A stretch of 64,000 bases of DNA, taken from the NCBI RefSeq assembly GCF_024363255.1, contig NZ_AP026070.1, positions 1,364,001 through 1,428,000 on the forward strand, written 5' to 3'. Shown one piece after another: positions 12,505 through 34,015 of the stretch. A program made the position numbers and the translations under genes. Numbering within the stretch: position 1 is the stretch's first letter; each line of letters begins with the position of its first letter. The notes beneath the pieces were generated by a model. It searched no databases and was not told the origin of the DNA. It worked only from the letters and a program-made list of their open reading frames with translations. Source of the stretch: Shewanella sp. NFH-SH190041 (GTDB lineage: Bacteria; Pseudomonadota; Gammaproteobacteria; Enterobacterales; Shewanellaceae).

Positions 12505-12544
12505 TCTGCAGCAGAGTTACGCCCTTATGGGCATATCAATACAA

Positions 12545-12580
12545 AACGGCCGCAGTGGGCATACCTGCTGCGGCCGTTGT
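12545..12580. terminator. Bidirectional terminator between convergent genes
   Basis: AACGGCCGCAG and CTGCGGCCGTT form an 11-bp GC-rich stem around a 12-base loop. It lies between the barrel protein and the leftward chalcone-isomerase-like gene. The T-tracts are weak. Confidence 0.7.
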
Positions 12581-12625
12581 TGTTATCGCTTAAGCGGAAT
12601 ATGGGCTGGGCTTTAAGTCATCCAA

Positions 12626-13183: not shown

Positions 13184-13223
13184 AAAACCTCGTTGAATTA
13201 TCGTTTTTGTTGGTATGTCAGGC

Positions 13224-13788: not shown

Positions 13789-16251
13789 TTATGATGAGCG
13801 GGCTAAGGCTTGCTCTAATTGGGTCAGTTGTCTGGCGGCCAGCAGATTGTCCGGGTTAACCTCCACGGCCTGTTGGTACATTTCTTTCGCCTGTTGATAA
13901 TGGCCTTGCTGTAACAAAATATCGGCCAGTTTGGTCCACCCTTGGCTATCACAGGGCACTTTTTGCAAGTATTGCTGCCAGCAATTGATCGCATCATCCA
14001 AACGTTGTTGCAAGGTATAGAGCTTGGCCAGCTGGGGGGCATATTCGTCACTGTAGGGCAACAGTGCTTCCAGTGCAGTGGTTGCTGTATCAACTTGTGC
14101 CGTTTTGAGACTAATCAATACCTGCTGGCGAATATCGGCCTCTTGTTGCAGGTGCTGGGGCATACTGTGGATTGCCTGATGGGATTCAAAATCCTTGCCT
14201 TCGAGCTGATAAAGGTAGCTCTTAGCTCTAAACCCCAGTTGTTTTGCTTTATCTGATGGTGGCAGGGCAGCGAATGCCGCCACCATCTGTGCCAGTCCTT
14301 GGGTATGGCCAATCAGGTGCAGATATTCGAGCTTTTCTTCTGCGGCCAGTAAATCCCACTGTTTTAATGGCCGGTTATTGCGGGTCATGACCGGTACTTG
14401 CATTGTTTGGCGATAGGCCTGTAATAAACGGCTGATAATCTGGGCTTCACCAAAGGTGAGACTTGTGGCTAACGTTGGGTGACGCTGCAACAGAATATCA
14501 ATTCGCCCGGATTGCTGGTGACGTTGCCATTGTTTTGCCAGTAGGGACAGATTGGGATATGGGCGGTTTTCTTCCTGGCGAGATGTTATTTGCCGTAAGG
14601 TTTCATCCAACAGATTAATAAGACTATGGCATGATTCTGACATGGCCTGGTAATACTGGCGGGACATGTTACATACCTGATTTTGTTGCCAAGTATCACT
14701 CTCTCGGGTGGAAAGGAATTTGCTGAATTGGTGATAACCATAAAATTTTATCAATTTTAATTGAGCTGGAAATTGTTGATCTAGCTGCTGTTGTAAGCGT
14801 GCTAATGCGTCTGCATGACCCACAGCATCATCGGATAAATCCAATGCGATTTGTGCTTGAGTAAAGATTGTTTGTAATGCTTTTTGGCAATCTCGGCAGT
14901 GTTGAGCGAGCTGGTGTAAATGGCGGCCATGGTGCTTACCGGAGATTGCCGCAGGATATCGTTGTCTTAGTTTGCCCAGTAATTCATATTTATCTGGCAG
15001 TGATGCAAGTTTTAGTGCGGTAGGCTCTATAAAAGCAACCCCTTTTATTTTGGCGCCATGTAATGACAGACTTATCACATCCGTATCGGGTAATGCTTTG
15101 ATTTGTTGTTCTAGTGAGGTAATGGCAGCAGATAACTGTACGGTTGTTTCTGCCTGTTGTGCATTATTGGTCGGGACCCAAATGCCAATTTTACTGATAA
15201 AGGGACCAAGTCGCCCCTCTAAACTGCCACTGGCATGGGATACTCCGGTGGGGGACCAACACATATCAACCCCAAGTAGCAATATCCTTCCTGCTCCGAG
15301 TGTCGCTGCTAGCTGAACGGCACTATTACTGACGGTAGGTCCAGTAATTCCCATATTATTTTCCGTGCGCCAAGGTAGCTGCTGACCGGTATAGAAATGG
15401 CTGCCTTGCCATTGACCGAGCAAAGCCGGGTGAGCATGGTCGGCATTGATTAGGATGGTTTCTAGGGGGAGGTTAAGAATTGCTTTACTCGTCGCAAAAC
15501 TTACTTGTTGCGGATCGACTGTGACCACAAAATCAATGTGTATGCCAGCATGGTGTAATTGTTCTGCGGCGCGGGAAACACTGATAATGATCAACTCATC
15601 CTGATGTTGTTTCACCCAATCAATATGTTTATCTAAAGATGGTCCCCCACCAATGACTAGACAATCGGCACCTAAGGTCAGATGACGGAGTAATTCGGCC
15701 GGATAAATGTTATCGCAAGCATTAAACAATTGCTGCTGAATAAAACTATCCCCGTTAATATTGGCCTGTAGATTGAATGCTGCTTGTTCAACTTCCAGTT
15801 GTACTTGTTGTTTCAGTAGGCGGTAATTCTGGGTATAGGCGTGTTTAGCCCCAAGAGACAGATAGAGCTGATAACGGTTTTTGAGAAAAAACAGCTCATA
15901 TTGGGGTTGAGTGAGTATCTGAGCCAGTTGATTAAAGGAAATGATATCCATAGCACTGGCATATGCTGGCTCAATATCAATATTTAATGCATCTAATACC
16001 TCATCCAATTCGACAAACAAATAATGACTGCCAGCCGGGAGTGGATGACTCATCACATAATTGGCCAGCAGTCCAGAATCCATTCCTACAATAATATGTA
16101 ACTGATCTGTGTCGGTTAGTTTTTTATATTCAGTATCGTAATATTCAGTGGATTTTTTTTGGGTAAATTGTTCTCGATTAATAGTCGGGAAATAAGTTTC
16201 ATTAAAGGAGCTAATGGCAAATTGCAGGGCAGTTGGCTGATCCTGTGACAT
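13789..16251 (-). CDS. Maf-type motility accessory factor, flagellin nonulosonate transferase
   Basis: A large cytoplasmic protein of 820 residues. The central DUF115 (MptE-like) domain is marked by CLVIGGGPSLDKHIDW, FVVTVDPQ and the long MGITGPTVSNSAVQLAATLG segment. The C-terminus carries a TPR-like repeat (HYQQAKEMYQQAVEVNPDN). Maf proteins transfer pseudaminic or legionaminic acid to flagellin serines and threonines. I choose the ATG at 16251 because AAGGAG lies seven bases before it; a TTG six bases earlier is too close to that site. It is divergent from pseB, the first gene of the CMP-pseudaminate operon, which supports the role. Confidence 0.9.
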   Translation of the reverse strand: MSQDQPTALQFAISSFNETYFPTINREQFTQKKSTEYYDTEYKKLTDTDQLHIIVGMDSGLLANYVMSHPLPAGSHYLFVELDEVLDALNIDIEPAYASAMDIISFNQLAQILTQPQYELFFLKNRYQLYLSLGAKHAYTQNYRLLKQQVQLEVEQAAFNLQANINGDSFIQQQLFNACDNIYPAELLRHLTLGADCLVIGGGPSLDKHIDWVKQHQDELIIISVSRAAEQLHHAGIHIDFVVTVDPQQVSFATSKAILNLPLETILINADHAHPALLGQWQGSHFYTGQQLPWRTENNMGITGPTVSNSAVQLAATLGAGRILLLGVDMCWSPTGVSHASGSLEGRLGPFISKIGIWVPTNNAQQAETTVQLSAAITSLEQQIKALPDTDVISLSLHGAKIKGVAFIEPTALKLASLPDKYELLGKLRQRYPAAISGKHHGRHLHQLAQHCRDCQKALQTIFTQAQIALDLSDDAVGHADALARLQQQLDQQFPAQLKLIKFYGYHQFSKFLSTRESDTWQQNQVCNMSRQYYQAMSESCHSLINLLDETLRQITSRQEENRPYPNLSLLAKQWQRHQQSGRIDILLQRHPTLATSLTFGEAQIISRLLQAYRQTMQVPVMTRNNRPLKQWDLLAAEEKLEYLHLIGHTQGLAQMVAAFAALPPSDKAKQLGFRAKSYLYQLEGKDFESHQAIHSMPQHLQQEADIRQQVLISLKTAQVDTATTALEALLPYSDEYAPQLAKLYTLQQRLDDAINCWQQYLQKVPCDSQGWTKLADILLQQGHYQQAKEMYQQAVEVNPDNLLAARQLTQLEQALARSS

Positions 16252-18803
<2,552 letters not shown>

Positions 18804-18807
<4 letters not shown>

Positions 18808-19508
18808 CGCTTGCCATTATTCCTGCCCGCGGGGGCAGCCAACGCATTGCCAATAAAAATATCCGCGCTTTTCTGGGACGGCCGCTGCTGGCTTACAGCA
18901 TTGATGCGGCTTGGAAGTGCGGCTTGTTTGAGCGAGTGATTGTCAGTACCGACAGTGACGAGATCGCTGCCATCGCTCGTGATTGGGGGGCAGAGGTGCC
19001 GTTTATGCGTCCGGCGGCATTGGCTGATGGCATGACAGGTACAACTGCGGTAATGCGCCATGCCTTGAGTGTCTTGGCCCAAACCGGGCCGTTACCATCA
19101 TTAAGCTGCTGTCTATATGCCACGGCACCCTTGTTGCAAATTGCCGATTTACGGCTGGCTGGTTTACAGCTGCAGGCTGCGCCAGAGGTCGATTTTATCT
19201 TTGCTGCGACGGAATACGATTTTGCCGTACAGCGGGGATTGATCACAGATGAACAAGGAGGCGTCCAGCCAAGAGAGGCTGAGTTTATTGGTTGCCGCTC
19301 GCAGGATTTGCCACAGGTTTATCATGATGCAGGACAATTTTATTGGGGCCGCAGCCGGGCATTTTTGGCTGATGATGCTGCTGTTTTTGGCCCGGCATCC
19401 AGGCTCTACCTGCTGCCCAGGCGTCACGTGGTCGATATTGATACTGAAGCGGATTGGCAAGAGGCTGAGATCCGCGCTCAGATACTCAGACAACAGGGGG
19501 TGATGTGA
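18804..19508 (+). CDS. pseF: Pseudaminic acid cytidylyltransferase
   Basis: A 234-residue NeuA-like enzyme that activates pseudaminic acid with CTP to CMP-Pse, the donor used by Maf. The N-terminal nucleotide-binding signature IPARGGSQRIANKNIRAFLG is clear, and DSDEIAAIA and the C-terminal VDIDTEADW follow the family pattern. The start overlaps pseC by 4 bp, and the stop overlaps the GTG start of pseG. Confidence 0.94.
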
Positions 19509-20554
19509 ATCTGGTTTTCAGGGTTGATGCCGGCATGCATACCGGGCATGGCCATGTAATGCGCTGCCTGACATTAGCTGGTGCCATGCAGCAGCGGGGT
19601 ATTCCGGCGCGACATATTACCTTTTTATGCCGGGCACTGCCGGGGCATGCTGGTGACACTATTGCCGCCGCCGGTTACCGGGTGATCTGGTTAGCACAGG
19701 GCATTGATGATGAAGCGCTAGATGCCGCTGCATCCTGCCAGGCTTGGACCAATTTCAGCCAGGCAAAAATGGATTTACTGGTGGTGGATAATTATCGGCT
19801 TGGGCGAGAGTACTGTCGTGCCATGCGCCGCTGTAGCCGGTATCTGATGGTGATTGATGATTTAGCCGATCGGGATCATGACTGTGATCTGTTGCTGGAT
19901 CAAAATCTGCTGCCGGGATTTCGTCAGCGTTACCTCAACCGGGTTCCCACTTCAACCCAATTACTGCTTGGGCCGGAATATCTTTTGCTGCGCCCGGAAT
20001 TTGATCAGTGCCAGACGCTGCCCCGCGACAGTATTTTAGTCAGCTTTGGTGGCGGCGATACTCTGGCGTTGTCATGCCTTGCCGCGCGGGCCTTTCAGCG
20101 GCTTAATCCTCCCGATTTGACCTTGAATGTGGTTGTCGGTGGCGCGGCCGGACTGGATATCGGCAATGCCAAGCAGGTGTTTGCTCCGGACCCGCGCATT
20201 GTCTGGCATCACAACTGCCGCAATATGGCGCAGTTAATGTCCCGGGCGGTGATGGCTGTCGGTGCGGGTGGCACCAGCCATTGGGAGCGGCTCAGTATGG
20301 CGCTGCCTGCACTGGTCACTGTGGTGGCGGATAACCAGAAACAGACCACAGAATTACTGGCCAGGCAGGGTATGTGCGTCAGTCTGGGGGGCGTGGAGTC
20401 TGTTTCAGAAGCCGCCCTGGCCGATGCCATGGGGGCATTGCTGGCTGACCGGGCTAGTCGTGAAGCCATGGCCGAGCGAGCCAAGGCGATGATGCCAGCC
20501 AGACCCGGACGAGACCGGGTCGCTGGCGCCATGATGAGTTTACTGGGGGGATAA
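19505..20554 (+). CDS. pseG: UDP-2,4-diacetamido-trideoxy-altrose hydrolase
   Basis: A GT-B fold hydrolase of 349 residues that removes UDP from the diacetylated sugar before condensation with phosphoenolpyruvate. The DAGMHTGHGHVMRCLTLA N-terminus carries the conserved GHGHxMR motif, and GGTSHWERL is the UDP-binding region near the C-terminus. It starts with GTG, in a GTGA overlap with the pseF stop, behind a G-rich ribosome site. Confidence 0.94.
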   Translation: MNLVFRVDAGMHTGHGHVMRCLTLAGAMQQRGIPARHITFLCRALPGHAGDTIAAAGYRVIWLAQGIDDEALDAAASCQAWTNFSQAKMDLLVVDNYRLGREYCRAMRRCSRYLMVIDDLADRDHDCDLLLDQNLLPGFRQRYLNRVPTSTQLLLGPEYLLLRPEFDQCQTLPRDSILVSFGGGDTLALSCLAARAFQRLNPPDLTLNVVVGGAAGLDIGNAKQVFAPDPRIVWHHNCRNMAQLMSRAVMAVGAGGTSHWERLSMALPALVTVVADNQKQTTELLARQGMCVSLGGVESVSEAALADAMGALLADRASREAMAERAKAMMPARPGRDRVAGAMMSLLGG

Positions 20555-21604
20555 ATGCAGCCATTTTCCATTGCTGGCCACCACGTCGGGCCAGAACATC
20601 CGGTACTGGTGATCGCTGAGTTGTCCGGTAATCATCATCAAAGTTTGGCGACGGCAAAAGCCATGATCAAAGCCGCGGCTGATGCCGGGGTACAGGCGAT
20701 TAAGTTGCAGACTTACACCCCAGACACCATGACATTGGATATCAACCGGGATGAATTTCTTATCCGGGATGCAGATAACCTGTGGCAGGGAAAAAGCTTG
20801 TATCAACTGTATGCTGAAGCCATGACGCCCTGGGAGTGGCATCAGCCCTTATTTGATTATGCCCGCAGTTTAGGTTTACTGGCCTTCAGTACCCCTTTTG
20901 ATGCTAGCGCCGTAGCGCTACTGGAGTCCCTTGAGGTGCCTTGCTACAAAATTGCTTCATTTGAAAATACCGATCATGCCCTGTTGGCGGCGGTCGCCAG
21001 TACCGGGAAGCCTGTGTTGCTGTCAACTGGCATGGCGACAGTGGCTGAGCTGGCGGACAGTGTGGCGGTATTGCGACGCCATGGGTGTGAGCAGTTGCTG
21101 CTACTAAAATGCACCAGCCATTATCCGGCAGACCCGGTTGATGCCAATTTGTTGACCTTACCCCATCTTCAATCCCTGTTTAACTGTCCGGTAGGGTTAT
21201 CCGATCACACCTTAGGAATTGGGGTTGCGGTTGCCGCCGTGGCCCATGGTGCGTGTGTGGTGGAAAAACATTTTGTACTGGATCGCGCAGCTGGTGGCAT
21301 CGACAGTGAGTTTTCGCTGCAACCGGATGAGTTTGCCACTTTGGTCACAGAAACAGAACGGGCACGACTGGCGTTGGGGGGCATTCGTTATGGCTGCAGT
21401 GAGCGGGAACAAGCATCGCGTAAATTCCGCCGCTCTTTGTATATCAGTGCTGATTTACAGCAGGGACAGTTGCTCAGTGCTGACAATGTGCGCGCAGTGC
21501 GACCAGGACTGGGGTTGCCGGTGAAATATTTGCCGCAGTTGCTGGGACGGCCGGTGCAGCGTGATGTCTGTGCGGGCACGCCGCTGCAATGGGAGTTGAT
21601 TTGA
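20555..21604 (+). CDS. pseI: Pseudaminic acid synthase
   Basis: A NeuB-family enzyme of 349 residues that condenses the free diacetamido sugar with phosphoenolpyruvate. The N-terminal TIM-barrel shows IAELSGNHHQSLATAKAMI and IKLQTYTPDTMTLD; the C-terminal SAF (antifreeze-like) domain begins near RKFRRSLYI. The ATG follows the pseG stop directly. Its last 16 bp overlap the next gene. Confidence 0.94.
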   Translation: MQPFSIAGHHVGPEHPVLVIAELSGNHHQSLATAKAMIKAAADAGVQAIKLQTYTPDTMTLDINRDEFLIRDADNLWQGKSLYQLYAEAMTPWEWHQPLFDYARSLGLLAFSTPFDASAVALLESLEVPCYKIASFENTDHALLAAVASTGKPVLLSTGMATVAELADSVAVLRRHGCEQLLLLKCTSHYPADPVDANLLTLPHLQSLFNCPVGLSDHTLGIGVAVAAVAHGACVVEKHFVLDRAAGGIDSEFSLQPDEFATLVTETERARLALGGIRYGCSEREQASRKFRRSLYISADLQQGQLLSADNVRAVRPGLGLPVKYLPQLLGRPVQRDVCAGTPLQWELI

Positions 21605-22236
21605 TTCGCGGGCCAATAAGCGGTCAGGCCGCAGAGAATTTACTGCCCGGACAAAGCTGCGAGGTTGGTGGCATCCGGGTACGCAGTTTTGGCACTGCAG
21701 GTGATGGCGTTGGGGGGTATGGCGTGGTGTTGTTGCCAGTCATGGCGCGGGATTTACCCCAACTGCGTCGCTGGCGCAACAGTGATGATATCCGGTTGCA
21801 AATGGTGGATACCGGGCATATTGGTGCCCATCAACAAAGGTGTTGGTTTGAACATTGCCGCGAGCAAGGCGGTCAGCGCCATTGGGTACTGCGGGCGCAG
21901 CGCCAGCGTGCTGGGTATGTCAATTTGAAATCCCCAGAGCCAGCGGTATTGACAGGTCAAAGCCGGGTGGATACCGGATTGTATGTGGCGCCTTCTGCGG
22001 TGCGCCATCCTATGCTGGCGTTATCTGCGGCCTTGTGTCAGTTAGATTATGCCTTTGAGCTGCAGGGAGTACAGTCGGTTTGCACTCAAGTGCGGCAGGA
22101 TAATCATGCTGCATTGGGGCTGGATCAGTATCTGGGGTATCGGCAGGTTGGCCGCAGTGACGGTTTCATCCGCTTGGAGCTCAGTGATGAAAATTACCGG
22201 GTGGCAAGGGACAGATTGAGGAGATTTTATCGATGA
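21589..22236 (+). CDS. GNAT acetyltransferase, probable PseH
   Basis: A 215-residue protein whose second part is a GNAT domain, marked by RDLPQLRRWRNSDDIRLQM at the start and the C-terminal QDNHAALGLDQYLGYRQVG acetyl-CoA region. In pseudaminate synthesis PseH acetylates the 4-amino sugar from PseC, and no other gene here could do it, so context supports PseH. The first 45 residues do not look like the usual PseH start; they may be a linker or an over-extended start. The ATG overlaps pseI by 16 bp. Identity as an acetyltransferase is strong, the exact substrate is inferred. Confidence 0.78.
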   Translation: MGVDLIRGPISGQAAENLLPGQSCEVGGIRVRSFGTAGDGVGGYGVVLLPVMARDLPQLRRWRNSDDIRLQMVDTGHIGAHQQRCWFEHCREQGGQRHWVLRAQRQRAGYVNLKSPEPAVLTGQSRVDTGLYVAPSAVRHPMLALSAALCQLDYAFELQGVQSVCTQVRQDNHAALGLDQYLGYRQVGRSDGFIRLELSDENYRVARDRLRRFYR

Positions 22237-22463
22237 AAACACTGGAGCAGATTTTTGCTGTTGCCCTCGGGCTGGATGAGCAGCAGATCCATGATGATTT
22301 GGGCTATAACACCATTGCCCAGTGGGACAGTGTGGCCCATATGGGGTTGGTGGCCATGTTGGAAGATCACTTCGGGGTACTGCTCAGTGCCAATGACATT
22401 ATTGATATGAGCTCAGTGGCTCAGGCGCGGACAATTCTGCGTCGCAACGGCGCGCAACTCTAG
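22233..22463 (+). CDS. Acyl carrier protein
   Basis: A 76-residue acidic four-helix carrier with the phosphopantetheine serine at Ser33 in QWDSVAHMGLV. The start overlaps the previous gene by 4 bp, and its TAG shares a base with the GTG of the next gene. It is not the housekeeping AcpP, given its divergent sequence and position. With the ketoreductase and acyl-AMP ligase that follow, it likely carries a short or modified acyl group for sugar decoration. Confidence 0.9.
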   Translation: MKTLEQIFAVALGLDEQQIHDDLGYNTIAQWDSVAHMGLVAMLEDHFGVLLSANDIIDMSSVAQARTILRRNGAQL

Positions 22464-23212
22464 TGTTGTTTAATCCGTCGCTGGACGGTAAACAGATCCT
22501 GCTCACCGGGGCGACAGGCGGCATTGGTCGGGCTATCGCCCGTACGCTGGCCTCGCTGGGGGCCGGGCTATGGCTCAACGGCCGGGATGAGCAAGCCCTA
22601 TTGGGGGTGGCCGATGAGCTGGCTGCAGAGTTTAGTCTCAGTCCCAAAATCGTGGCGTTTGATGTTACGGATGCCAATGCGGTGCAGGTGGGGTTCAGTC
22701 AGATTTTTTCCCAAGGCGGGCTTGATGTACTGATTAATAATGCCGGCGTTATGTTGCCATCATTGCTGGGCATGGTGCGGGATGATGAGTTAGAGCAAAC
22801 ATTTGCCTGTAACAGTTTTGCTGTGCTGCATTGTTGTCAGTATGCCGCCAGATTAATGCAACGCCGAGGCGGTGGCTGCATTATCAATATGACCTCAGTG
22901 CTGGCCGCCAAAGGGGCTGCGGGGCAGAGTGTGTATGCGGGTAGCAAAGCGGCAGTGTGCGGTTTTACCAAGTCGCTGGCTAAGGAGCTAGCCGGCGATA
23001 ATATCCGCGTTAATGCGGTAGCGCCGGGCATGATAGCAACGCCCATGTTAGAGGCGCTTTCCAGTGAAGTGTATCAACAAACCCTGGATGGGATTGCTTT
23101 GGGGCGCATTGGTCAGCCAGACGATGTGGCTGCACTGGTGGCGTTTTTGGTATCCGATCTGGCTGGTTATATCACGGGGCAGGTTATTGATATTGATGGA
23201 GGCATGTTGTGA
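22463..23212 (+). CDS. SDR 3-oxoacyl-ACP reductase-like protein (FabG family)
   Basis: A 249-residue classical SDR. The NAD(P)-binding motif TGATGGIG is at residues 15-22, NNAG follows near residue 90, and the Ser-Tyr-Lys triad lies around SVYAGSKAAV. FabG-type enzymes reduce 3-ketoacyl-ACP to 3-hydroxyacyl-ACP. A dedicated ACP is immediately upstream, which favours an acyl-ACP substrate over a sugar. It starts with GTG, one base overlapping the ACP stop. Confidence 0.85.
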   Translation: MLFNPSLDGKQILLTGATGGIGRAIARTLASLGAGLWLNGRDEQALLGVADELAAEFSLSPKIVAFDVTDANAVQVGFSQIFSQGGLDVLINNAGVMLPSLLGMVRDDELEQTFACNSFAVLHCCQYAARLMQRRGGGCIINMTSVLAAKGAAGQSVYAGSKAAVCGFTKSLAKELAGDNIRVNAVAPGMIATPMLEALSSEVYQQTLDGIALGRIGQPDDVAALVAFLVSDLAGYITGQVIDIDGGML

Positions 23213-24753
23213 CGCAGGCGTTTATCAATAACAGGTTACTGGCCGCATTTTGCCCGGATAATCGGGCGCCTTTTTGGTGGGATAAGCAATCTGGCTGGCT
23301 CAGCTACGCCACGGCTGCGGCTGAAATCACGGCATTGCAGCAGCATTATACTAAGCCGCGACAACTGATCTATTTCCCCTTTGCCAATAGTCGGGCTCAT
23401 GTGCTGCAGTATTTGGCGGCGCTGGGGACAGGCCAAGTGCTGATGTTAGCCGACCCGGCATGGTCTGTATCTCAACATCAGCAAAATTGCACCCGCTTTG
23501 CCGTGGATGCCTGGGTGGATGATACCGGCCAATTACAATATGGCCGTTATGGCTGCGAGGGAGAGTTACCGGATAAGGCGGGGGCTGAACAAGATGCGAT
23601 CCATAACCAGTCCTTAGCTAGTGCTGCTATTGTAGCCGGTTCAACGCAACAAAATGTTGCTAAGCAAGCTTGTGACGAACACGCTCAGACCCATGCGCCA
23701 CTACACCCGCAGTTGACCCTATTATTGCCCACCTCAGGCAGTACTGGCAGTCATAAGTGGGTGCGGTTATCGGCTGCGAATATAACCAGTAATGCTGAGG
23801 CCATTGCCGCTTATCTGACCTTAACCGCTGCGGATCGCGCCATTACTTCACTGCCTTTTTTCTATGCCTATGGCTTGTCGGTATTACACAGTCAGCTAAT
23901 TGTTGGTGGGGCGATGGTGCATTGCCGGGCAACTATGCTGCAGCCAGCGTTCTGGCAATGTATGCGACAACATAATGTCTCCCATTTGGCCGGGGTACCA
24001 TTTTCATTTCAAATGATGCTACGCGCCGGGTTTGAGCGGGCCGATTATCCCGCACTGCGGGTGCTGACGCAGGCTGGTGGCAGATTGGTTCCTGAATTAG
24101 TGCGTCATTTTGCCACTGAAGCACTGCAACTGCAGCAGCGCTTTTTTGTGATGTACGGTCAGACAGAGGCTGCGCCGCGTATGGCTTGGCTGGCGGAGCA
24201 TGAAGCGGTGGATTACCCCGATGCCATTGGCCGCGCGCTGGCGGGTGGGGTGTTTATTTTGCGTGCTCTCGGTGCAGCTGACCATGGGGTTGATGATGTG
24301 GCCGATGATCTTAGCCGGGGGGAGCTTGTTTACCGAGGCCCTAATGTGATGATGGGCTATGCCAACGACAGAGCGATGCTGGCTCGTGGTAATGATTGTT
24401 CAGAGTTACTTACTGGGGATTTAGCGCGGCGGGATGGCCAAGGGCGTTATTACCTTTGTGGGCGAATAAGCCGTTTTATCAAACTTTACGGTCGGCGCAT
24501 TAATTTGGTGGATGTGGAAGCCTTTTTACACCGGGAGGGGCACACTAGTGCATGCCTTGCCAATGACGAGTTACTGGAGGTTGCATTGGAGGCTCCGGCC
24601 GTGTTGGCCCAGGTGCAAAAAAGCCTTTGCCGTTGGTTATCTTTGCCTCCAGGTGCGGTTCGTTTACATCAACTGACCGCATTGCCTCGTACCGCCAGTA
24701 TGAAGGTGGATTATCCCGCGTTAACCCGGCAGTTAAGCCGCGGTGCATCTTAG
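23209..24753 (+). CDS. AMP-forming acyl ligase
   Basis: A 514-residue adenylate-forming enzyme of the acyl-CoA synthetase superfamily. The P-loop-like signature TSGSTGSHK is at residues 175-183, YGQTEA is present, and the GDLARRDGQGRYYLCGR region precedes the C-terminal hinge. Such enzymes activate an acid as acyl-AMP and load it on CoA or a carrier protein; the ACP two genes upstream is the likely acceptor. An unusual insertion-like stretch rich in Ala and Gln lies near residues 120-165. It starts with GTG, overlapping the reductase by 4 bp. Confidence 0.87.
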   Translation: MTQAFINNRLLAAFCPDNRAPFWWDKQSGWLSYATAAAEITALQQHYTKPRQLIYFPFANSRAHVLQYLAALGTGQVLMLADPAWSVSQHQQNCTRFAVDAWVDDTGQLQYGRYGCEGELPDKAGAEQDAIHNQSLASAAIVAGSTQQNVAKQACDEHAQTHAPLHPQLTLLLPTSGSTGSHKWVRLSAANITSNAEAIAAYLTLTAADRAITSLPFFYAYGLSVLHSQLIVGGAMVHCRATMLQPAFWQCMRQHNVSHLAGVPFSFQMMLRAGFERADYPALRVLTQAGGRLVPELVRHFATEALQLQQRFFVMYGQTEAAPRMAWLAEHEAVDYPDAIGRALAGGVFILRALGAADHGVDDVADDLSRGELVYRGPNVMMGYANDRAMLARGNDCSELLTGDLARRDGQGRYYLCGRISRFIKLYGRRINLVDVEAFLHREGHTSACLANDELLEVALEAPAVLAQVQKSLCRWLSLPPGAVRLHQLTALPRTASMKVDYPALTRQLSRGAS

Positions 24754-24771
24754 GGGAGGGCAGACAGCACT

Positions 24772-25926
24772 ATGTCACAGTCACCCCAGAGTGTAGCGCC
24801 AATGATAACCTCAACGACGCCAGCTGATACTGACTCTACAGATGATATTGAGTCATCTTGGTCTATGCCTGATGCATTTGGGCTTGGTCAGCAGGATAAA
24901 GCTGCGCGGCTATTAGCGCGACTTAACCGCCTGACGGTACACCATGCCAACAATTGCCCTCCTTACCGGCAATTGTTGCAAGCATTTACGCTGTCACCAT
25001 CCAACACGGGCTACCAGTCGAGCAATGATTACAGTCAATTGCCTTATGTGGCATCTGGACTATTTAAAGCCGTAAGGTTACTCAGTGTTGCCGAAGCCGA
25101 TGTGCTGCGGGTAATGCGCTCTTCAGGTACGGGGGGGCAGGCATCACAGATAATACTCGACCGACAGACAGCTGCGGCTCAGAGCCAAGCATTGGTGACA
25201 ATAATGCAGTCATTTCTAGGGCCGGATCGTTTGCCTATGCTGCTATTTGAGCCCCCGGGATATGTCCATAGTCATGGCCGTTTCAGTGCCCGTGGTGCAG
25301 GCGTGCTGGGTATGGGGCTATTGGGGCGAGATCATCATTATGCGCTTAATGAGGATATGAGTCTGAACTGGGCGGTGATCAATCGTTTTACCGATCGCTA
25401 TGCCGGGCAAAGAACGCTGCTTTTTGGCCTCACTTTTGTTATCTGGCAGCAGGTTTTGCAAGTTTTAGCCAATCAACCGCGAACGTTAGCACTGGATGGC
25501 GGCATTTTAGTGCATGGCGGCGGCTGGAAAAAACTGCAGCATCAGGCGGTGGACAATCAGGCATTTAATCAGGTGTGTGCTGAACAGCTCGGTATCACCC
25601 AGGTGCATAACTATTACGGCATGATGGAGCAGGCAGGCTCAGTGTTTGTTAGCTGTGCCCAAGGGCATTTTCATGCGCCGCTGTGCAGTGATGTACTGGT
25701 GCGTCATCCCATTACTTTGATGCCACAGCCTGAGGGGGAAGCTGGGCTGCTACAGGTGCTGTCAGCCTTGCCGCTGAGCTACCCGGGACACAGTATTTTG
25801 ACTGAGGACTTAGGGATATTACTGGGAGAGGATGATTGTCCCTGTGGCAGGCGCGGGCGTTATTTTACTGTGCTGGGACGGCAACAGGGTTCGGAGGTGA
25901 AAGGATGCAGCGATACATTTTCTTAG
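24772..25926 (+). CDS. LuxE-like acyl-protein synthetase
   Basis: A 384-residue protein of the LuxE/acyl-protein synthetase family, related to adenylate-forming enzymes. The C-terminal half shows the typical YYGMMEQAGSVF and CPCGRRGRYFTVLGR segments. In luminous bacteria LuxE activates a fatty acid and passes it to LuxC. The next gene here is LuxC-like and overlaps by 22 bp, so the pair is kept together although no luciferase genes are present. Confidence 0.87.
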   Translation: MSQSPQSVAPMITSTTPADTDSTDDIESSWSMPDAFGLGQQDKAARLLARLNRLTVHHANNCPPYRQLLQAFTLSPSNTGYQSSNDYSQLPYVASGLFKAVRLLSVAEADVLRVMRSSGTGGQASQIILDRQTAAAQSQALVTIMQSFLGPDRLPMLLFEPPGYVHSHGRFSARGAGVLGMGLLGRDHHYALNEDMSLNWAVINRFTDRYAGQRTLLFGLTFVIWQQVLQVLANQPRTLALDGGILVHGGGWKKLQHQAVDNQAFNQVCAEQLGITQVHNYYGMMEQAGSVFVSCAQGHFHAPLCSDVLVRHPITLMPQPEGEAGLLQVLSALPLSYPGHSILTEDLGILLGEDDCPCGRRGRYFTVLGRQQGSEVKGCSDTFS

Positions 25927-27350
25927 CCGCTAGCGATAGTCAACCTGTGGGGTATGGTGTGATGGCTGCTTGGGCACCAAATGATCTGCCAAATGTTGAA
26001 CCGGGTGTTAAGCCTAGGAGTGAACTGGATTTTAAGCTTGAAGGCGGAGCACGCTTAGACCAAAACTTCAGTTTGCATAAGCGTCAGAGCCAGAGCCAGA
26101 AGCAGAGCCAAGATAAGCCGCTTTATGAATCTGTTGATGAAGACATTGCCGCGCCACATGATTGGCAGCAAGTCCCCGAGGTTGAACAGGTCTTGCCCGG
26201 CACAGACTGGCAAGATTTTACCCCTTCACCATTGCCTGCCTTTGCACCTGAGATCCTGAGTTTTCTGGCGCATTTGTCCCAGCGATTAATACAGGCCGGT
26301 ACACAACAGCCGGATTTGGCGGCATTGGGGTTTTTATTGCGTCCAGCACAGTTAGCTGCTCAGCAGCAACGCCTTGGAAATAATCATGCTCTTGGCTTGG
26401 TATTTCACTTGGTGCCTTCCAATGTGCCGGTAGTGGCATTTTATTCTTGGGCGATTGCACTGTTGCTGGGCAATGCCAATGTGGTGCGTTTGTCCTCCAA
26501 GCGTAGTGAGACACAACAGCAGATCCTAGCCATAGTGCAGCAACTACTGACGCAGCGCCGTTGGCAGGATATTGCCCGGCGTAACCGTTTTATCCGCTAT
26601 CGTCACTCAGATGATAGTGCGAATGACAGCACAACTAGTCACGATGAAGTGACCGCGTGGTTTAGTGCCCGCTGCCGCTTACGGGTGATTTGGGGCGGTG
26701 ATAATACGGTTGGTGCGGTGCGGGCAGTGCCCTTAGCCCCCCGTGCAGCTGAACTGGTGTTTGCCGATCGGCAATCAATCGCTGTGTTAGATAGCCGTTG
26801 GTTACGCTTGTGTTGTTCGGCGCAGTTAGCTGCCATCGCGGCCGGTTTACAACAAGATTGCTGTCGCTTCAATCAGCAAGCTTGTTCATCCCCCACCGGA
26901 TTTATCTGGTTGGGGCAGCCAGAGCCTGAGCTACGTAAACAATTATTGCAGATGATTTTTGCTCCCTTTGCTCACGATGCAGCCGCAGTGATGCAGCGTT
27001 TAGTCGGCTTGCAGCAGTATTTATGTTTATCTGCTGCACCTATTCATGTAGAGCAGTTGGCTGGGGTCAATATTGTTCAGCCGGGTAATGGGCCGTTATT
27101 ACAGCATGCTGGTGGCGGGGTAATTGCCGAGTGGGTACTTGATGATGCCCAGTGCCTCTTGGATATGCCGTGGGATATACAGACTTGTGTATTAGCCGGG
27201 GATGCATCATTACGCCAATTGCTATTGGCGCAGTGTGGAAGGTTGCAGTTGGATAGGGTGGTTCGGCCGGGACAGGCGTTGGCACTGGACTGGTATTGGG
27301 ATGGCATGGATTTACCCGCCCGGTTCAGCCGCAGTGCCAGACAAGGGTAA
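25905..27350 (+). CDS. LuxC-like acyl reductase
   Basis: An NADPH-dependent acyl-CoA or acyl-enzyme reductase of 481 residues. I start at the ATG at 25905, which has GGAGG seven bases before it; an upstream in-frame start would add 23 residues read from luxE sequence. HLVPSNVPVVAFYSWAIALL and VVRLSSKRSETQ are LuxC signatures, and Cys327 in QQACSSPTGF is the catalytic cysteine. A low-complexity Gln-Ser-Lys run lies near residues 60-70. Product would be an aldehyde. A MITE begins 8 bp after the stop. Confidence 0.87.
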   Translation: MQRYIFLAASDSQPVGYGVMAAWAPNDLPNVEPGVKPRSELDFKLEGGARLDQNFSLHKRQSQSQKQSQDKPLYESVDEDIAAPHDWQQVPEVEQVLPGTDWQDFTPSPLPAFAPEILSFLAHLSQRLIQAGTQQPDLAALGFLLRPAQLAAQQQRLGNNHALGLVFHLVPSNVPVVAFYSWAIALLLGNANVVRLSSKRSETQQQILAIVQQLLTQRRWQDIARRNRFIRYRHSDDSANDSTTSHDEVTAWFSARCRLRVIWGGDNTVGAVRAVPLAPRAAELVFADRQSIAVLDSRWLRLCCSAQLAAIAAGLQQDCCRFNQQACSSPTGFIWLGQPEPELRKQLLQMIFAPFAHDAAAVMQRLVGLQQYLCLSAAPIHVEQLAGVNIVQPGNGPLLQHAGGGVIAEWVLDDAQCLLDMPWDIQTCVLAGDASLRQLLLAQCGRLQLDRVVRPGQALALDWYWDGMDLPARFSRSARQG

Positions 27351-27357
27351 GGCTCTA

Positions 27358-27616
27358 GGGTCTGCTGACGTTTCGTGATTGAATTTTGTTCGAGATAAAA
27401 GCGTTTTAATCGCGGCGAGTGGTTTGCCGCCTAGTTATTCTAAGCAAGAACCGCTCAACAAAGAGTAAAACGCTTTTAGCTGAACCCATCGGGCAGCGTT
27501 TGAGGCTCCTTTCTACTGCGTTATCGGCTTATCAGGTAGCGCACTAGCAAAGCCTCTGCCTTGTATAAAGAATCCTCAAATCGCTGCAAAAACAAACTTG
27601 AAAGGTCAACAGACCC
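27358..27616 (+). mobile_element. MITE-like element, full copy 2 (259 bp), within the operon
   Basis: It runs from GGGTCTGCTGACG to GGTCAACAGACCC, with TA on both sides as a likely 2-bp target duplication. Internal arms TAAAAGCGTTTTA (27396-27408) and TAAAACGCTTTTA (27466-27478) are exact reverse complements, so a long hairpin can form. It has no coding capacity. It splits the glycosylation operon and could reduce or pause read-through to the downstream genes. Confidence 0.87.
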
Positions 27617-27688
27617 TAGCAAGAAAGAGCAGTATTTTTCATCTGGCCCAAACCGGAATGAGTGCCAAAACGACAGGAGTGAAACACA

Positions 27689-28684
27689 GTGCAAGGGAGT
27701 GCAAAACAGACCCGTTTGGAGAGCTTGGCCGCTGTCGGACCGGGGCAGAGTCACCCGCAACAGTATGTCCTGTTTGGATGTGGCAGTGGCGGGAAAACGG
27801 CCTTAGCTCGATTACAACGCGAAGGGGTGGCGGTCACAGCTCTATGTGATAACGATGCATCCCTGTGGGGACAGGAATATCAAGGCTTGCCGATTATGGC
27901 GCCGGCGGTATTACTTGGTAGTGAAACAGCCATTGCCAGCACCGCTGTGCCGACTTTAGTGGCAGGCCGGCACATTCACTGGCTGATTGCCAGTGGTTAT
28001 TCCCCGGCGATAGTGCAGCAGTTACAGCAGGCCGGCGTGTCAACTGATGCTATCTGCGTCTTACCTCAGCATTATTTAAAGTCATTTAATTTTTCCTATG
28101 CGCCGGCACGGATGCTGGCCGAAAACTTGCTTCTGTCTTGCTGTCACTATTTTGACCGACAACAACTGATGTATTGGCTGGATTTTGGCACCTTGCTGGG
28201 ATTGGTGCGAGATGGGGAGCTGATCCCTTGGGATTCAGATTTGGACTGTGCTATGCCCAAAGAGGATTTTGACCGTTTGTGTCAGCAGTTGCCTAAGTTG
28301 ACAGCAGTTTTATCCCGGGCGTTAGGGCGGGAGGTTACCGCTCGACTGATTGATGGGCAATTTGTGGCTCCCAGTCGGGTGCTGTTGACGGTGACATTGG
28401 TGGAGGCTGAATTGAATATGGATATTTTTTGTCGGGTATTTCCAAAAGATAAGGATGCTTTACCTACGACAATCGCCTTAGAAGATACCGCTGATACTGA
28501 TTGTGAAATCGAAATAATGTCCCGGCGGGTACCGGCTCAGGCCGCGTTTTTTCACCATGCCGAGCCGCTCTATTGGCGGGGCAGGCGTTTACACATCCCC
28601 GCCGGATTTGAACCGTACCTGAGCCATGTTTATGGACCTGATTGGCGTGTAGCGAACCGTAACTGGACCTTGCATACCCAGTAA
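27689..28684 (+). CDS. LicD-family transferase with N-terminal Rossmann-like domain
   Basis: A 331-residue two-part protein. The N-terminus (QYVLFGCGSGGKTALARLQ, LCDNDASLWG) is a small Rossmann-like domain often fused to glycan enzymes. The C-terminal part has LicD signatures YWLDFGTLLG (residues 162-171) and WDSDLD (181-186). LicD proteins transfer phosphocholine or related phospho-alcohols from CDP-donors to glycans. It starts with GTG behind AGGAG. A LicC-like nucleotidyltransferase three genes downstream is a plausible donor maker. The transferred group is unknown. Confidence 0.8.
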   Translation: MQGSAKQTRLESLAAVGPGQSHPQQYVLFGCGSGGKTALARLQREGVAVTALCDNDASLWGQEYQGLPIMAPAVLLGSETAIASTAVPTLVAGRHIHWLIASGYSPAIVQQLQQAGVSTDAICVLPQHYLKSFNFSYAPARMLAENLLLSCCHYFDRQQLMYWLDFGTLLGLVRDGELIPWDSDLDCAMPKEDFDRLCQQLPKLTAVLSRALGREVTARLIDGQFVAPSRVLLTVTLVEAELNMDIFCRVFPKDKDALPTTIALEDTADTDCEIEIMSRRVPAQAAFFHHAEPLYWRGRRLHIPAGFEPYLSHVYGPDWRVANRNWTLHTQ

Positions 28685-28769
28685 GACAGTGGAGCCAGCT
28701 GCGAGTAGTGCTGGCATAACAAGCGCTGAGCCAAATCGCGCATTGATAATGTGAAGACGGAGACCCCTT

Positions 28770-29528
28770 ATGACTCGATTACTGGTGGATGCACAGGACA
28801 GCCGACACAGTCTGGATAAAGCGGCAGTACGGCAGTTTTTTGATATCCGCGCCAATAAAGCCGCCACCCTGGGGTTAGACCGGGCGGTGATTTATCAGGA
28901 TAAACATCCTGAGTTAGCCCAAGCGCGGGATAAGGCGGAAAAGCAGCGTCTAAGACCATATTTGGCCCTGGCCGCGGATGACAGAGTACTGGATATCGGC
29001 TGCGGTACTGGCCGCTGGGCTGATGAAGTGCTACCCCAATGCGGGACATATCTTGGGGTGGATATCTGTGATGGTTTTATCCAGTTGGCGCGGGAGCGAT
29101 TTGCCCATTGTAGCCATGCCTGTTTTTGCCAACTGGGGGCGGAAGATGTCGGTTTATTACCGGCAGGGCCTGAAGAGCAATTCCAGTTAGTGCTGTCCAT
29201 GGGGGTGATGATTTACCTCAATGATGCGGAGCTGCAGCGGTATTTAGATGGCTTATGTCGTTTAGTCGCGCCGGGCGGGCGGGTTATTTTCCGTGAGCCG
29301 GTCGGGCTAGATAAGAAGCTGGTACTGAGTGAGCATTATTCAGCTGAAATGGGTCAGGATTATCACGCTATTTACCGCACTGAGGCTGAATTGCAGCAGT
29401 ATTTTGTCGCATCACTGGCTCGCTGCGGTTTTCGCTGCCGTGCCAGCGGCAATATGTTTGATGACAAGCTGAATAACCGTCAAGAAACCGGGCAGCAATT
29501 CTATCTGTTTGTACGGGAAGGCGCATGA
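28770..29528 (+). CDS. SAM-dependent methyltransferase
   Basis: A class I methyltransferase of 252 residues. SAM-binding motif I is VLDIGCGTG at residues 73-81, followed by GVDICDGF and the LVAPGGRVIFREPVG segment. The substrate cannot be told from sequence; its place between a LicD-like transferase and a phosphatase suggests a sugar, an amine or a phospho-alcohol head group. It is separated from the LicD-like gene by 85 bp and overlaps the phosphatase gene by 4 bp. Confidence 0.86.
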   Translation: MTRLLVDAQDSRHSLDKAAVRQFFDIRANKAATLGLDRAVIYQDKHPELAQARDKAEKQRLRPYLALAADDRVLDIGCGTGRWADEVLPQCGTYLGVDICDGFIQLARERFAHCSHACFCQLGAEDVGLLPAGPEEQFQLVLSMGVMIYLNDAELQRYLDGLCRLVAPGGRVIFREPVGLDKKLVLSEHYSAEMGQDYHAIYRTEAELQQYFVASLARCGFRCRASGNMFDDKLNNRQETGQQFYLFVREGA

Positions 29529-30121
29529 AAACGGCATTTTGCTTTGACTTAGATGGCACTGTCACCACCACGGAAATTTTGCCCTGTATCGCCTCTGAGT
29601 TGGATATTGCCGAGGAGATGGCGGTACTCACCCAAGCCACCATGGATGGACTGATTGATTTTCGGGCATCATTTCGGCTGCGGGTGAGGCTGCTTGCCAC
29701 AATTGCTCCGGGGCGGGTGCGGGATATTGTTGCTCAGGTGCCACTGGATCCTCATATCAGTGATTTTATCCGTCGCCGGACTGACTGTTTTGTGGTGTCG
29801 GGCAATCTGGCGCAGTGGATCAGCCCGATTATTGAGCAGTTGGATTGTGGCAGTTTTGCATCTCAAGCCGGAGATGGTGAAGGCGGACTGCAGCTTGAAC
29901 ATATCCTGGATAAGGGCGCAGCGCTTGATTGTTTGCGGCAACAGGGATTTGAACGCATTGTGGCGGTGGGGGATGGCATGAATGATTGCGCCATGTTTGA
30001 CCGGGCTGACATCGCCATCGCCTATGGTGGCGTGCATGCTCCGGTTGCGGGGTTAACCGCGCGGGCCGATTATCTGGTAAATAACGGGAGGAAGCTGTGT
30101 CAATTGTTACAAATGCTGTAA
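29525..30121 (+). CDS. HAD-family phosphatase (SerB-like)
   Basis: A 198-residue haloacid-dehalogenase phosphatase. The nucleophile motif is DLDGT (Asp8 and Asp10), the motif II region is FVVSGNLA, and the acidic motif is VGDGMNDCAMF. Size and layout match the SerB-like subclass that dephosphorylates small phospho-metabolites. The start overlaps the methyltransferase by 4 bp, and its end overlaps the nucleotidyltransferase by 25 bp, so the genes are coupled. Confidence 0.87.
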   Translation: MKTAFCFDLDGTVTTTEILPCIASELDIAEEMAVLTQATMDGLIDFRASFRLRVRLLATIAPGRVRDIVAQVPLDPHISDFIRRRTDCFVVSGNLAQWISPIIEQLDCGSFASQAGDGEGGLQLEHILDKGAALDCLRQQGFERIVAVGDGMNDCAMFDRADIAIAYGGVHAPVAGLTARADYLVNNGRKLCQLLQML

Positions 30122-30834
30122 TAGCAGCCGCAGGTATGGGCTCGCGCATTGGGCTGGGAATGCCCAAGTGTATGATTGAAATCCAAGGGGTTACCTTACT
30201 GAGCCGGATGTTAGCTGCTCTGGTTGGGCAGGTCGAGCATGTTTTCCTGGTGGTGGGATATCGGGAAAATCTGGTGGCTGAATATTGTCGCCGCCATCAT
30301 CCTGAGGTGATTTTGGTGCGTAATCCTGATTTTGCCACTACCAATACCGCCGCCAGTTATGGCATCGCGGCACGCTATTTACAGGGTAAGACACTGTTTA
30401 TTGACGGCGATTTAATTGTTAATCCGGCATCATTGGCAGCTTTTCTACAGCAGGCTGAGGATTGCCCACTGCTGGTGGGGATCACCCCGGCCAGTTCAGA
30501 TAATGCCGTGCTGGTGAGTCACCAAGGCGATACGATCACCGGCTTTACGGCGCAGCAGGGTGAGTCGGCGGCATATGAATGGGCCAATTTATTTGTTGGT
30601 GATGGGCGGGTATTTGAGTCTGCTGACGGTTTTGTTTACGAGTCGCTCAATGCCTTTTTGCCTGCGCGCTGCGCGGCGGTGGAATTATGTGAAATTGATA
30701 CTCAGGCTGACTATCAGCGGGCTTGTGCTTTTGTGCAGACCCTAGATTATTGGCAGCATCAGCAAACGATTGCCAACAGTCCAGTAGCATCAAGAGAGAA
30801 AGATGGTATTACGTCAGATGTGAGTTGTATCTGA
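30097..30834 (+). CDS. LicC-like NTP:phosphate nucleotidyltransferase
   Basis: A 245-residue nucleotidyltransferase. AAGMGSRIGLGMPKCMIEI is the nucleotide-binding loop, and FIDGDLIVN holds the metal-binding acidic pair. It resembles LicC and similar enzymes that make CDP-choline-like donors, which would suit the LicD-like transferase upstream. It starts with GTG, five bases after GGAGG, and overlaps the phosphatase. It is the last gene before a terminator. The true substrate is not shown by the sequence. Confidence 0.8.
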   Translation: MSIVTNAVIAAAGMGSRIGLGMPKCMIEIQGVTLLSRMLAALVGQVEHVFLVVGYRENLVAEYCRRHHPEVILVRNPDFATTNTAASYGIAARYLQGKTLFIDGDLIVNPASLAAFLQQAEDCPLLVGITPASSDNAVLVSHQGDTITGFTAQQGESAAYEWANLFVGDGRVFESADGFVYESLNAFLPARCAAVELCEIDTQADYQRACAFVQTLDYWQHQQTIANSPVASREKDGITSDVSCI

Positions 30835-32821: not shown

Positions 32822-34015
32822 CAGGGCGGGATCGCACTTTATTAAAAAATATGATCAAATAGCGGCGTCTTTTATTATTGGTCATTGCTATGGACTTGTT
32901 TGAACACCTCTCCGTCGTTACCGAAACACGCTCTGACATTAATCGTCGGCACGATCTTATTGATGTCATCTTTCTTGTTATTAGTGCCATTGCCTCAGGA
33001 GCTGAGGGTTGGCGCGATATTCAAGAGTTTGGGGACAATAAAATTGATTGGTTAAAGCAGTACCGTTTGTATGAATCAGGTGTTCCCCGCCGGCACACGA
33101 TTGCGCGCATCTTGCGCGCTATTGAAGTCGAATCACTGCTGTTAGCCCTATTAAGCTGGGCCAATGAGCATCGTTACCATTCTGGTAAGCCACTGATTGC
33201 ACTGGATGGCAAGGTACTTCGAGGGGCTTATCGTAATAACCCCAAGCAAGCATTGCAGCTTGTTACTGCATACGACTGTGAGAACGGACTCGTTCTCAGC
33301 CAGCGGCCGACAGCCAATAAAAACGGTGAAATCAAAGTTGTACGACAGATGCTCAAAGTCCTTGATATCAAAGGTGCCGTCATCACTATGGATGCACTCC
33401 ATTGCCAGCGTGAAACGCTTGAGTTAATCAGCAGTAAGAAAGCTCATGTCGTTGTTCAAGTTAAGAAAAATCAACCTCTACTGCATAAATTTATTCGTTC
33501 TCAATTCCAAACTCTGTGTGATGCCAATAAGGAAAAGGTCATTACTGAAGTTATTCAGCAAGCTCATGGGCGTACAGAAGCACGTTACGTCTTTCAGTTA
33601 AAGGCTAAGCTCACCCCGGAGTTAATAGAGAAATGGCCGACCATCCGCAGTTTCATTGCGGTGGAGCGCCATCGTACTCAAGATGGTAAAACCTCAATCG
33701 ATACCAGCTTCTACGTCAGCTCTTTATCACCAAAACATAAGCTTTTAGGACACTATATTCGTCAACACTGGCGTATTGAAAATAGTCAACATTACATCCT
33801 TGATGTTGTTTTTAAAGAGGATGCTTCGCGCATTGCAATGGGTGATGCCGTTGAAAATATGGCGCTATTTCGCCGGTTTGTGATGAACCTGTTGCAGCAG
33901 TGCCATTGTGATGCACCAAGCCAACGAAATAAGATAAAAAAGGCGGGCTGGAATGATGATTATCGTTCAAAGGTCTTCTTTGGATAAAAAGTCATCGAAG
34001 TATGCTCTCGCCCTG
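32822..34015 (+). mobile_element. ISAs1-family insertion sequence, intact (1194 bp)
   Basis: The left end begins CAGGGCGGGATCGCAC and the right end reads CAGGGCGAGAGCATAC on the other strand, 12 of 16 bases matching. A 10-bp direct repeat flanks it, fitting the 8-10 bp duplications of this family. One transposase gene fills the element. The intact duplication and open gene suggest recent insertion. Confidence 0.92.
32890..33987 (+). CDS. ISAs1-family DDE transposase
   Basis: A 365-residue transposase. The N-terminus (HDLIDVIFLVISAIASGAEGW) is the zinc-free N-terminal domain typical of ISAs1 proteins. ALDGKVLRG, ITMDALHCQRE and the later QHWRIENSQHYILDVVFKED are conserved family blocks that carry the catalytic acidic residues. 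I take the ATG at 32890; a TTG at 32878 would add four residues. No frameshift is seen, so it may be active. Confidence 0.93.
   Translation: MDLFEHLSVVTETRSDINRRHDLIDVIFLVISAIASGAEGWRDIQEFGDNKIDWLKQYRLYESGVPRRHTIARILRAIEVESLLLALLSWANEHRYHSGKPLIALDGKVLRGAYRNNPKQALQLVTAYDCENGLVLSQRPTANKNGEIKVVRQMLKVLDIKGAVITMDALHCQRETLELISSKKAHVVVQVKKNQPLLHKFIRSQFQTLCDANKEKVITEVIQQAHGRTEARYVFQLKAKLTPELIEKWPTIRSFIAVERHRTQDGKTSIDTSFYVSSLSPKHKLLGHYIRQHWRIENSQHYILDVVFKEDASRIAMGDAVENMALFRRFVMNLLQQCHCDAPSQRNKIKKAGWNDDYRSKVFFG

Follow-up and report, generated by a model that had tools for sequence, protein, structure and literature searches.

A six-gene cassette with LuxE- and LuxC-like proteins downstream of the pseudaminic acid genes of Shewanella sp. 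NFH-SH190041: a candidate hydroxyacyl module

The window analyzed here is a stretch of 64,000 nucleotides of Shewanella sp. NFH-SH190041 (contig NZ_AP026070.1, positions 1,364,001 to 1,428,000; coordinates below are those of the window unless another source is named). It carries genes for the synthesis of pseudaminic acid (Pse) that are directly followed by a six-gene block, pseH-ACP-SDR-ligase-luxE-luxC, encoding a PseH-like GNAT, an acyl carrier protein (ACP), a short-chain dehydrogenase/reductase (SDR), an AMP-forming ligase, and LuxE- and LuxC-like proteins. On balance, we favor the interpretation that this block is a module that decorates Pse with a hydroxyacyl group, where the reactions, the acid and its donor, and the protein that is modified are those that we infer below. 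It is likely that pseH encodes the acyltransferase of the cassette and that N-7 of Pse is the target. That the transferred group is a short hydroxyacyl appears fairly probable, and its derivation from malate is a tentative suggestion.

A previous sequence-only reading had described the five genes after the pse set (22233–27350) as a cassette that activates an acid and reduces an acyl group in connection with Pse synthesis. All five are open, lie on the + strand and have intact motifs, and the general outline holds, including the tie to Pse synthesis, probably for flagellin. The fatty or aldehyde-derived end group that it predicted does not; a short hydroxyacyl is more likely, with the aldehyde as an intermediate. 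The boundary after pseH probably has to be moved as well, given that pseH, like the cassette, is closest to Aeromonas and is probably part of the unit. Because dozens of genomes from several phyla have the same gene set, the association is beyond chance.

The six-gene block

The first gene of the block (21589–22236, + strand, like the other five) encodes the PseH-like GNAT, which scores 48.8 bits against TIGR03585 (cut-off 93.1) and lacks the loop glycine discussed below. It is followed by the genes for the ACP (22233–22463; PF00550, 26.8 bits; DSV motif), the FabG-like SDR, proposed to be a semialdehyde (or keto) reductase (22463–23212; PF13561, 206.6 bits; YAGSK), the AMP-forming ligase, which in our model charges the ACP with the hydroxy acid (23209–24753; PF00501, 124.6 bits; TSGSTG/YGQTE/TGD), the LuxE-like acyl-protein synthetase (24772–25926; PF04443, 156.4 bits; GCS motif), and the LuxC-like acyl-protein reductase (25905–27350; QQACSSP motif), whose 74.5-bit match to PF05893 spans only positions 79–236 of the 401 in the profile. 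FabG-type NCBIfam models match the SDR below cut-off, and the model nearest to the ligase is TIGR03098 (142/592 bits). Overlapping starts, as noted earlier, are found for pseH/ACP (4 nt), ACP/SDR (1 nt), SDR/ligase (4 nt) and, provided that luxC starts at the ATG at 25905, luxE/luxC (22 nt); the ligase and luxE genes do not overlap and are separated by 18 nt.

Cys379 near the C-terminus of the LuxE-like protein is invariant in 18 aligned sequences and aligns with the GC motif of LuxE in the lux operon fatty acid reductase (7xc6), and Cys327 of the LuxC-like protein, invariant in 22 of 22 aligned sequences, is opposite the QQAC of 7xc6 LuxC, so that both cysteines are common to the two systems by alignment. 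We take Cys379 to be the acyl-transfer residue and Cys327 to be the catalytic residue. Both proteins are far under the NCBIfam lux cut-offs (72.7/550 and 32.8/750 bits for LuxE and LuxC, respectively). Furthermore, the lux operon of bioluminescent bacteria includes luciferase, whereas the Pfam scan of the 10 proteins of 21589–30834, with matches counted above the cut-off of each family, yielded no luciferase family match, in agreement with the earlier observation. Unlike in the lux operon, the substrate of LuxE/LuxC here is probably a small acid.

Origin of the block

For comparison, a scan of named genomes produced at least 595 pattern matches, at least 574 of them LuxE relatives, and the best 80 loci were used. 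Among these loci, pseB, pseC, pseF, pseG and pseI of the window have their best matches in the Shewanella loci L075 (S. mangrovi) and L089, and pseH, ACP, the ketoreductase (KR, the SDR of the window), ligase, luxE and luxC in Aeromonas. For pseI, the Shewanella match scores 541 bits vs 335 for the best Aeromonas one (75% identity to S. mangrovi L075 and at most 51% to the Aeromonas loci); for luxC, Aeromonas scores 381 bits vs 119 for Shewanella; the KR is a near tie (267 bits for Aeromonas vs 264 for Shewanella). The gene order in the window is of the Aeromonas type, pseH-ACP-KR, as opposed to pseH-KR-ACP in L075 and L089. In a PseH tree obtained by a quick method, the window protein groups with six Aeromonas PseH (97, a starred branch), apart from the PseH of other cassette-bearing Shewanella. 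Given that pseBCFGI are closest to Shewanella and pseH to luxC are closest to Aeromonas, pseH probably belongs to the cassette as part of a six-gene unit that, judging from these affinities, was seemingly acquired as a whole.

Several observations weigh against this conclusion. In the Aeromonas stretches used, there is no pseB and pseC is not clear, and for this reason the contrast rests on pseF, pseG and pseI. Two Aeromonas loci (L034 and G230) combine a PseH of another type with Aeromonas-type cassette genes; in A. enteropelogenes (L034), this PseH (7071–7697 of that locus) is 26% identical to the window PseH and precedes the ACP-to-luxC cassette. Therefore, pseH can be exchanged alone. Correlated divergence was tried as support and dropped, being weak once Bacillota are removed: the values for PseH-luxE and PseH-NeuB are 0.64 and 0.19, respectively, in 39 taxa and 0.39 and 0.25 in the set free of Bacillota; for the smallest subset, NeuB-LuxE (0.64) exceeds PseH-LuxE (0.47).

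PseH and the loop glycine

The confident structure model of the window PseH (pLDDT 88) has H. pylori PseH (4ri1) as its best PDB match; a search of its sequence against PDB sequences gave no match. The fold and the place in the Pse pathway are those of the canonical enzymes of H. pylori (4ri1) and C. jejuni (4xpk), and the differences from the canonical acetyl-CoA-dependent enzyme are the low score against the curated model and the absence of the loop Gly. H. pylori PseH binds the pyrophosphate of CoA through the Gly103 main chain (PMC4363471; here and below, the cited papers are represented by excerpts of their text). A loop Gly, equated with Gly103 from its position in the loop without structural superposition, is present in 2 of the 52 rows of cassette PseH vs 25 of the 26 rows from LuxE-free genomes. 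Loss of this Gly is expected in our model because the donor would be acyl-ACP; PseH may thus have changed its donor from CoA to acyl-ACP.

Here, too, there are points on the other side. The pattern has few origins, with four Gly changes on a 74-row quick tree. There are three independent pairs on starred branches (four on all), Gly going with the absence of LuxE in 1.4 on average and the reverse in none, and the sign test is not significant. Five PseH-like GNATs encoded beside ACP and KR in genomes without a LuxE match (G005, G096, G329, G334 and G350) keep the Gly, and hence ACP use is not generally marked by loss of this residue. Three of the seven Shewanella cassette PseH (G253, G346 and G368) exceed the TIGR03585 cut-off, so the PseH score is no mark of a cassette PseH either.

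The loci of these five LuxE-free genomes (L122, L125, L126, L127 and L174), with a Gly-keeping PseH-like GNAT beside ACP and KR, are perhaps another ACP-based acyl system.

Parallel with the tetronate genes of Vibrio cholerae O1

The perosamine of V. cholerae O1 carries 3-deoxy-L-glycero-tetronate, which has been assigned to VC0248–VC0252 (PMC3441752), and RfbN of this organism contains a LuxE domain (PMC4772473). The components of a tetronate-type set, namely ACP, AMP ligase, LuxE and LuxC functions, and an amino-sugar acyltransferase, are all found in the window, a likeness that concerns domains only. The V. cholerae genes (rfbKLMNO/wbe), in the part of their description used here, comprise an oxidoreductase, a LuxE/LuxC-type protein and an amino-sugar acyltransferase as in the window; we take RfbK (VC0248) to be the ACP and RfbL (wbeL) to be a ligase. 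There are differences as well. V. cholerae has a single LuxE/LuxC protein and perosamine as the acceptor, whereas the window encodes two proteins; and where V. cholerae has an Fe-alcohol dehydrogenase, the window has the SDR. Because the Fe-alcohol dehydrogenase is absent, the cassette is better described as working like the tetronate pathway than as a member of it.

This comparison was made through a proxy, L113 of genome G124, rather than with the V. cholerae proteins directly. In L113, genes for ACP, ligase, Fe-alcohol dehydrogenase and an 825-aa LuxE-LuxC fusion stand in a row, near NeuB- and DegT (aminotransferase)-like genes. At 1e-60, this fusion has matches in 11 of 398 genomes of the phylum, G124 included; the others comprise six further fusions of full length, a fusion-type fragment truncated at the end of its contig, and three LuxE proteins that stand alone. 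The Fe-alcohol dehydrogenase gene adjoins five of the seven other fusion loci (L187, L189, L191, L192 and L193), and the remaining two, L188 and L190, end too soon. The parallel is weakened by the low identity between L113 and the window (33% for LuxE, 21% for the ligase, 33% for ACP and 23% for LuxC) and by the lack of an ACP match in three longer stretches with Fe-alcohol dehydrogenase and fusion. A locus of the G124 type was found in one of the 12 genomes of the family of G124, that is, in G124 alone. An Fe-alcohol dehydrogenase replacing the SDR within the cassette was not found in the 80 loci, where matches of about 80 bits in L046 and L061 lie outside the cassette.

In another locus (L198), an open reading frame (ORF) that reads as a GDP-mannose dehydratase-like gene (12218–13330 of that locus) adjoins Fe-alcohol dehydrogenase, LuxE-LuxC fusion and ligase genes, an arrangement that would fit a GDP-sugar with an acyl group, for example perosamine.

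Proposed reactions

By analogy with the tetronate genes, with the SDR in the slot of the Fe-alcohol dehydrogenase, we propose the following order of reactions. LuxE would adenylate a small acid, in the most likely case a dicarboxylate (for example malate) at one of its carboxyls, and hand the acyl group to LuxC, which would reduce it to the semialdehyde. The SDR would convert this aldehyde to the alcohol, and the ligase would load the resulting hydroxy acid, at best guess dihydroxybutyrate (3-deoxytetronate type), on the ACP. Finally, PseH would transfer the short hydroxyacyl from ACP to N-7 of Pse. It counts against this scheme that, to our knowledge, none of the cassette enzymes has been assayed.

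More generally, LuxE/LuxC/ligase/ACP cassettes could work as modular lines that assemble N-linked polyhydroxyacyl groups for bacterial surface sugars, an extension that we regard as doubtful. For C4 groups of the tetronyl type, the LuxC semialdehyde would be simply reduced by the SDR or the Fe-alcohol dehydrogenase, and for C6 or longer groups, a split transketolase or a thiamine pyrophosphate (TPP) enzyme would extend it before the reduction. If this is the case, the acyl group would be readable from the genes. Both the hydroxyacyl model and this extension were given lower odds because of L034/G230 and the five Gly-keeping ACP-linked PseH, and the fatty-acid, 3-hydroxyacyl and other-glycan alternatives treated below gained slightly.

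Flagellin masses and alternative readings

The cassette itself has been published, in the Group II flagellar glycosylation islands (FGI) of Aeromonas (98 strains; PMC7874193) and in FGIs of Enterobacteriaceae (PMC4875605), where it is labeled as fatty-acid or "liposugar" genes. The earlier remark that no full chemical account exists stands for the open-access literature, in which no paper with both 'tetron' and 'pseudaminic' was found and, among the papers listed, none that links the flagellin cassette to tetronate. As far as the excerpted description goes, the Aeromonas Group II island (orf1–3, luxE and luxC after pseH) shares with the window the gene set and order, with ACP, reductase, AMP synthetase, luxE and luxC downstream of pseH. 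It differs in having pse genes at two places, as against a joint, Shewanella-like pseBCFGI in the window, and in the gene after luxC, which is the fgi-1 glycosyltransferase there and a LicD-family gene in the window. Thus, the window has the Group II cassette but not the whole island type.

In the Group II strain A. piscicola AH-3, a 376-Da sugar, given as 376.14, stays on flagellin in the Fgi-1 deletion (PMC7874193). The same source lists, in the AH-3 glycan, the 376-Da Pse derivative, Hex, HexNAc, phosphate, methyl and an unknown 102-Da unit, and no long chain in the excerpted text. The computed mass of Pse5Ac7(C4H6O3) is 376.1482, compared to 360.1533 for 3-hydroxybutyryl and 316.1271 for two acetyls; with one acetyl kept, a scan of acyl groups of C, H and O up to C7 within 0.025 Da left C4H6O3 and, besides it, a single formula that is absurd. 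The 102-Da unit likewise agrees with C4H6O3 in nominal mass. On the other side, 376.14 is a single reported value in that source, and isomers (O-methylglyceryl, two lactyls) fit equally. In addition, strain AH-1, of the single-Pse, Group I/III kind, has a 403-Da derivative (PMC4691044), so a high mass of the Pse derivative does not prove that the cassette is at work.

With its 403-Da sugar, AH-1 was also unsuitable as a 316-Da control. S. oneidensis MR-1 was rejected as a model and its 274+236–264 Da sugar left unused, given that LuxE/LuxC are absent from the published description of its sfm genes (NeuB, TPP enzyme, SDR, methyltransferase, ATP-grasp).

Among the alternatives, a plain 3-hydroxyacyl cassette survives best, even if we consider it improbable: the ligase would load a 3-oxo acid, the SDR would reduce it and PseH would transfer the product, with LuxE and LuxC acting separately. 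The SDR is FabG-like, as this scheme implies, 3-hydroxybutyryl has been found on sugars of marine bacteria (PMC3210612), and FdhC, a sugar GNAT (5ktc, with bound 3-hydroxybutanoyl product), ranks 16–17 in the PDB comparison with the PseH model. Nevertheless, the scheme leaves no role for LuxE (in 80 of the 80 loci, by selection) and LuxC (76 of 80), it predicts a mass of 360.15 rather than the reported 376.14, and the fused LuxE-LuxC is partnered by Fe-alcohol dehydrogenase and no ketoreductase. On mass, simple 3-hydroxybutyryl is second choice to the dihydroxy acid. The published view, a fatty-acid or fatty-aldehyde modification of the glycan, follows from the annotation of LuxE, LuxC, ACP and the reductase as fatty-acid enzymes (PMC7874193, PMC4875605), but it is quite unlikely and, in our view, wrong: it was set aside on the excerpted AH-3 glycan masses, which include no long chain and leave only C4H6O3 and the absurd formula in the acyl scan, and no ketosynthase match was seen among the ORFs run through Pfam, no search having been aimed at ketosynthases.

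The hydroxyacyl model replaces the published guess with a specific chemical prediction for a cassette present in Aeromonas, Shewanella, Enterobacteriaceae, Bacillota and uncultured lineages. If true, it explains the special pseH that usually accompanies the cassette, gives a formula for the 376-Da sugar of AH-3 and assigns LuxE/LuxC proteins a role outside light production, so that part of the surface-sugar chemistry of many bacteria might become predictable from DNA.

Flagellar context

A role of the cassette in a different glycan (O-antigen or capsule), with the pse neighborhood incidental, is quite unlikely as well: the NeuB + pseG + PseH set was not found in 40 of the 80 loci, some on short contigs, and the nearest flagellin genes lie about 22 kb past the window (C1:1449840–1452539; a genome search found a second flagellin locus elsewhere), but PseH has the same Aeromonas affinity as the cassette, a PseH-like gene stands beside ACP and KR in all seven LuxE-bearing genomes among 97 of the genus, and the L200 island adjoins a Maf gene and a flgN-like gene.

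LuxE relatives are found in these 7 of 97 genomes of the genus and in 35 of 295 of the order. In L200, from another Shewanella (G364), the order is the same as in the window, maf / pseBCFGI-pseH-ACP-SDR-ligase-luxE-luxC-licD, followed by methyltransferase, HAD and nucleotidyltransferase (NTP transferase) genes; the latter three-gene block is 42–50% identical to that of the window. The Maf gene that the island adjoins is a second one, and the flgN-like gene, recognized by reading, follows a few genes on. The genome of NFH-SH190041 has three Maf-type (PF01973) genes, one of them in the window.

Distribution and architecture of the cassette

In the 80 loci, where LuxE was the selection criterion and the profiles were built from these very loci, the ligase was found in 80, LuxC in 76, ACP in 73 (58 with the DS[LVIM] motif), SDR in 69 and an acyltransferase of any of four types in 63; the respective numbers for the 59 full-flank loci are 59, 57, 59, 54 and 50. 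NeuB, pseG and PseH occur together in 40 loci, and the commonest order, PseH-ACP-KR-LIG-luxE-luxC, is found in 21. In four loci without Pse genes (L058, L082, L091 and L098), Pfam shows that the cassette is accompanied by a hexapeptide acyltransferase, in three of them with a PglD N-domain, and by an aminotransferase-like gene. Counting against the model, no acyltransferase was found in 9 of the 25 full-flank non-Pse loci.

A split transketolase is encoded nearby in 23 of the 80 loci, and a TPP enzyme in six of the others. The combination of the cassette with split transketolase and KR is seen in gut Bacillota, Gastranaerophilales and others (e.g., L083, L088, L093, L095, L102, L104 and L109), mostly without the Pse set, which is present in 3 of the 20 full-flank cases. 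The flagellin of Treponema denticola is said to carry 2-methoxy-4,5,6-trihydroxyhexanoyl on Pse (450.2 Da); the mass computed for the lengthened acyl route plus one methyl on Pse is 450.185.

Gene fusions occur as well: ligase-LuxE in L114 and LuxE-LuxC in L113 and L115. In L118 (987–6746 of that locus), LuxE is followed by a fusion of LuxC with an AMP-binding domain (805 aa) and a GNAT, with no luciferase match in the scanned proteins.

Neighboring genes

Upstream of the block, all on the + strand, are pseB (16517–17662, with a likely start near 16670; TIGR03589, 548 bits when read from 16670), pseC (17659–18807; TIGR03588, 531 bits), pseF (18804–19508; TIGR03584, 275 bits), pseG (19505–20554; TIGR03590, 235 bits) and pseI (20555–21604; TIGR03586, 475 bits), each an equivalog match above cut-off; pseI is the last gene with Shewanella as the best match. 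Divergent from pseB, a Maf-type flagellin glycosyltransferase with an MptE-like domain and a TPR C-terminus is encoded on the − strand (13789–16257; PF01973, 131 bits).

Downstream and outside the six-gene block, the + strand encodes a LicD-family protein with an N-terminal extension (27689–28684; PF04991) and, by Pfam, a methyltransferase (28770–29528), a HAD phosphatase (29525–30121) and an NTP transferase (30097–30834). The LicD-family protein would serve a further decoration, separate from the block; the four genes together (27689–30834) may provide a phospho-linked group through a nucleotide-activated pathway. ORF reading also indicates two tandem cydAB-like operons (cytochrome bd oxidase; 363–3071 and 3643–6362) and, directly past the island, a transposase-like ORF that reads as the ISAs1 type (32878–33987).

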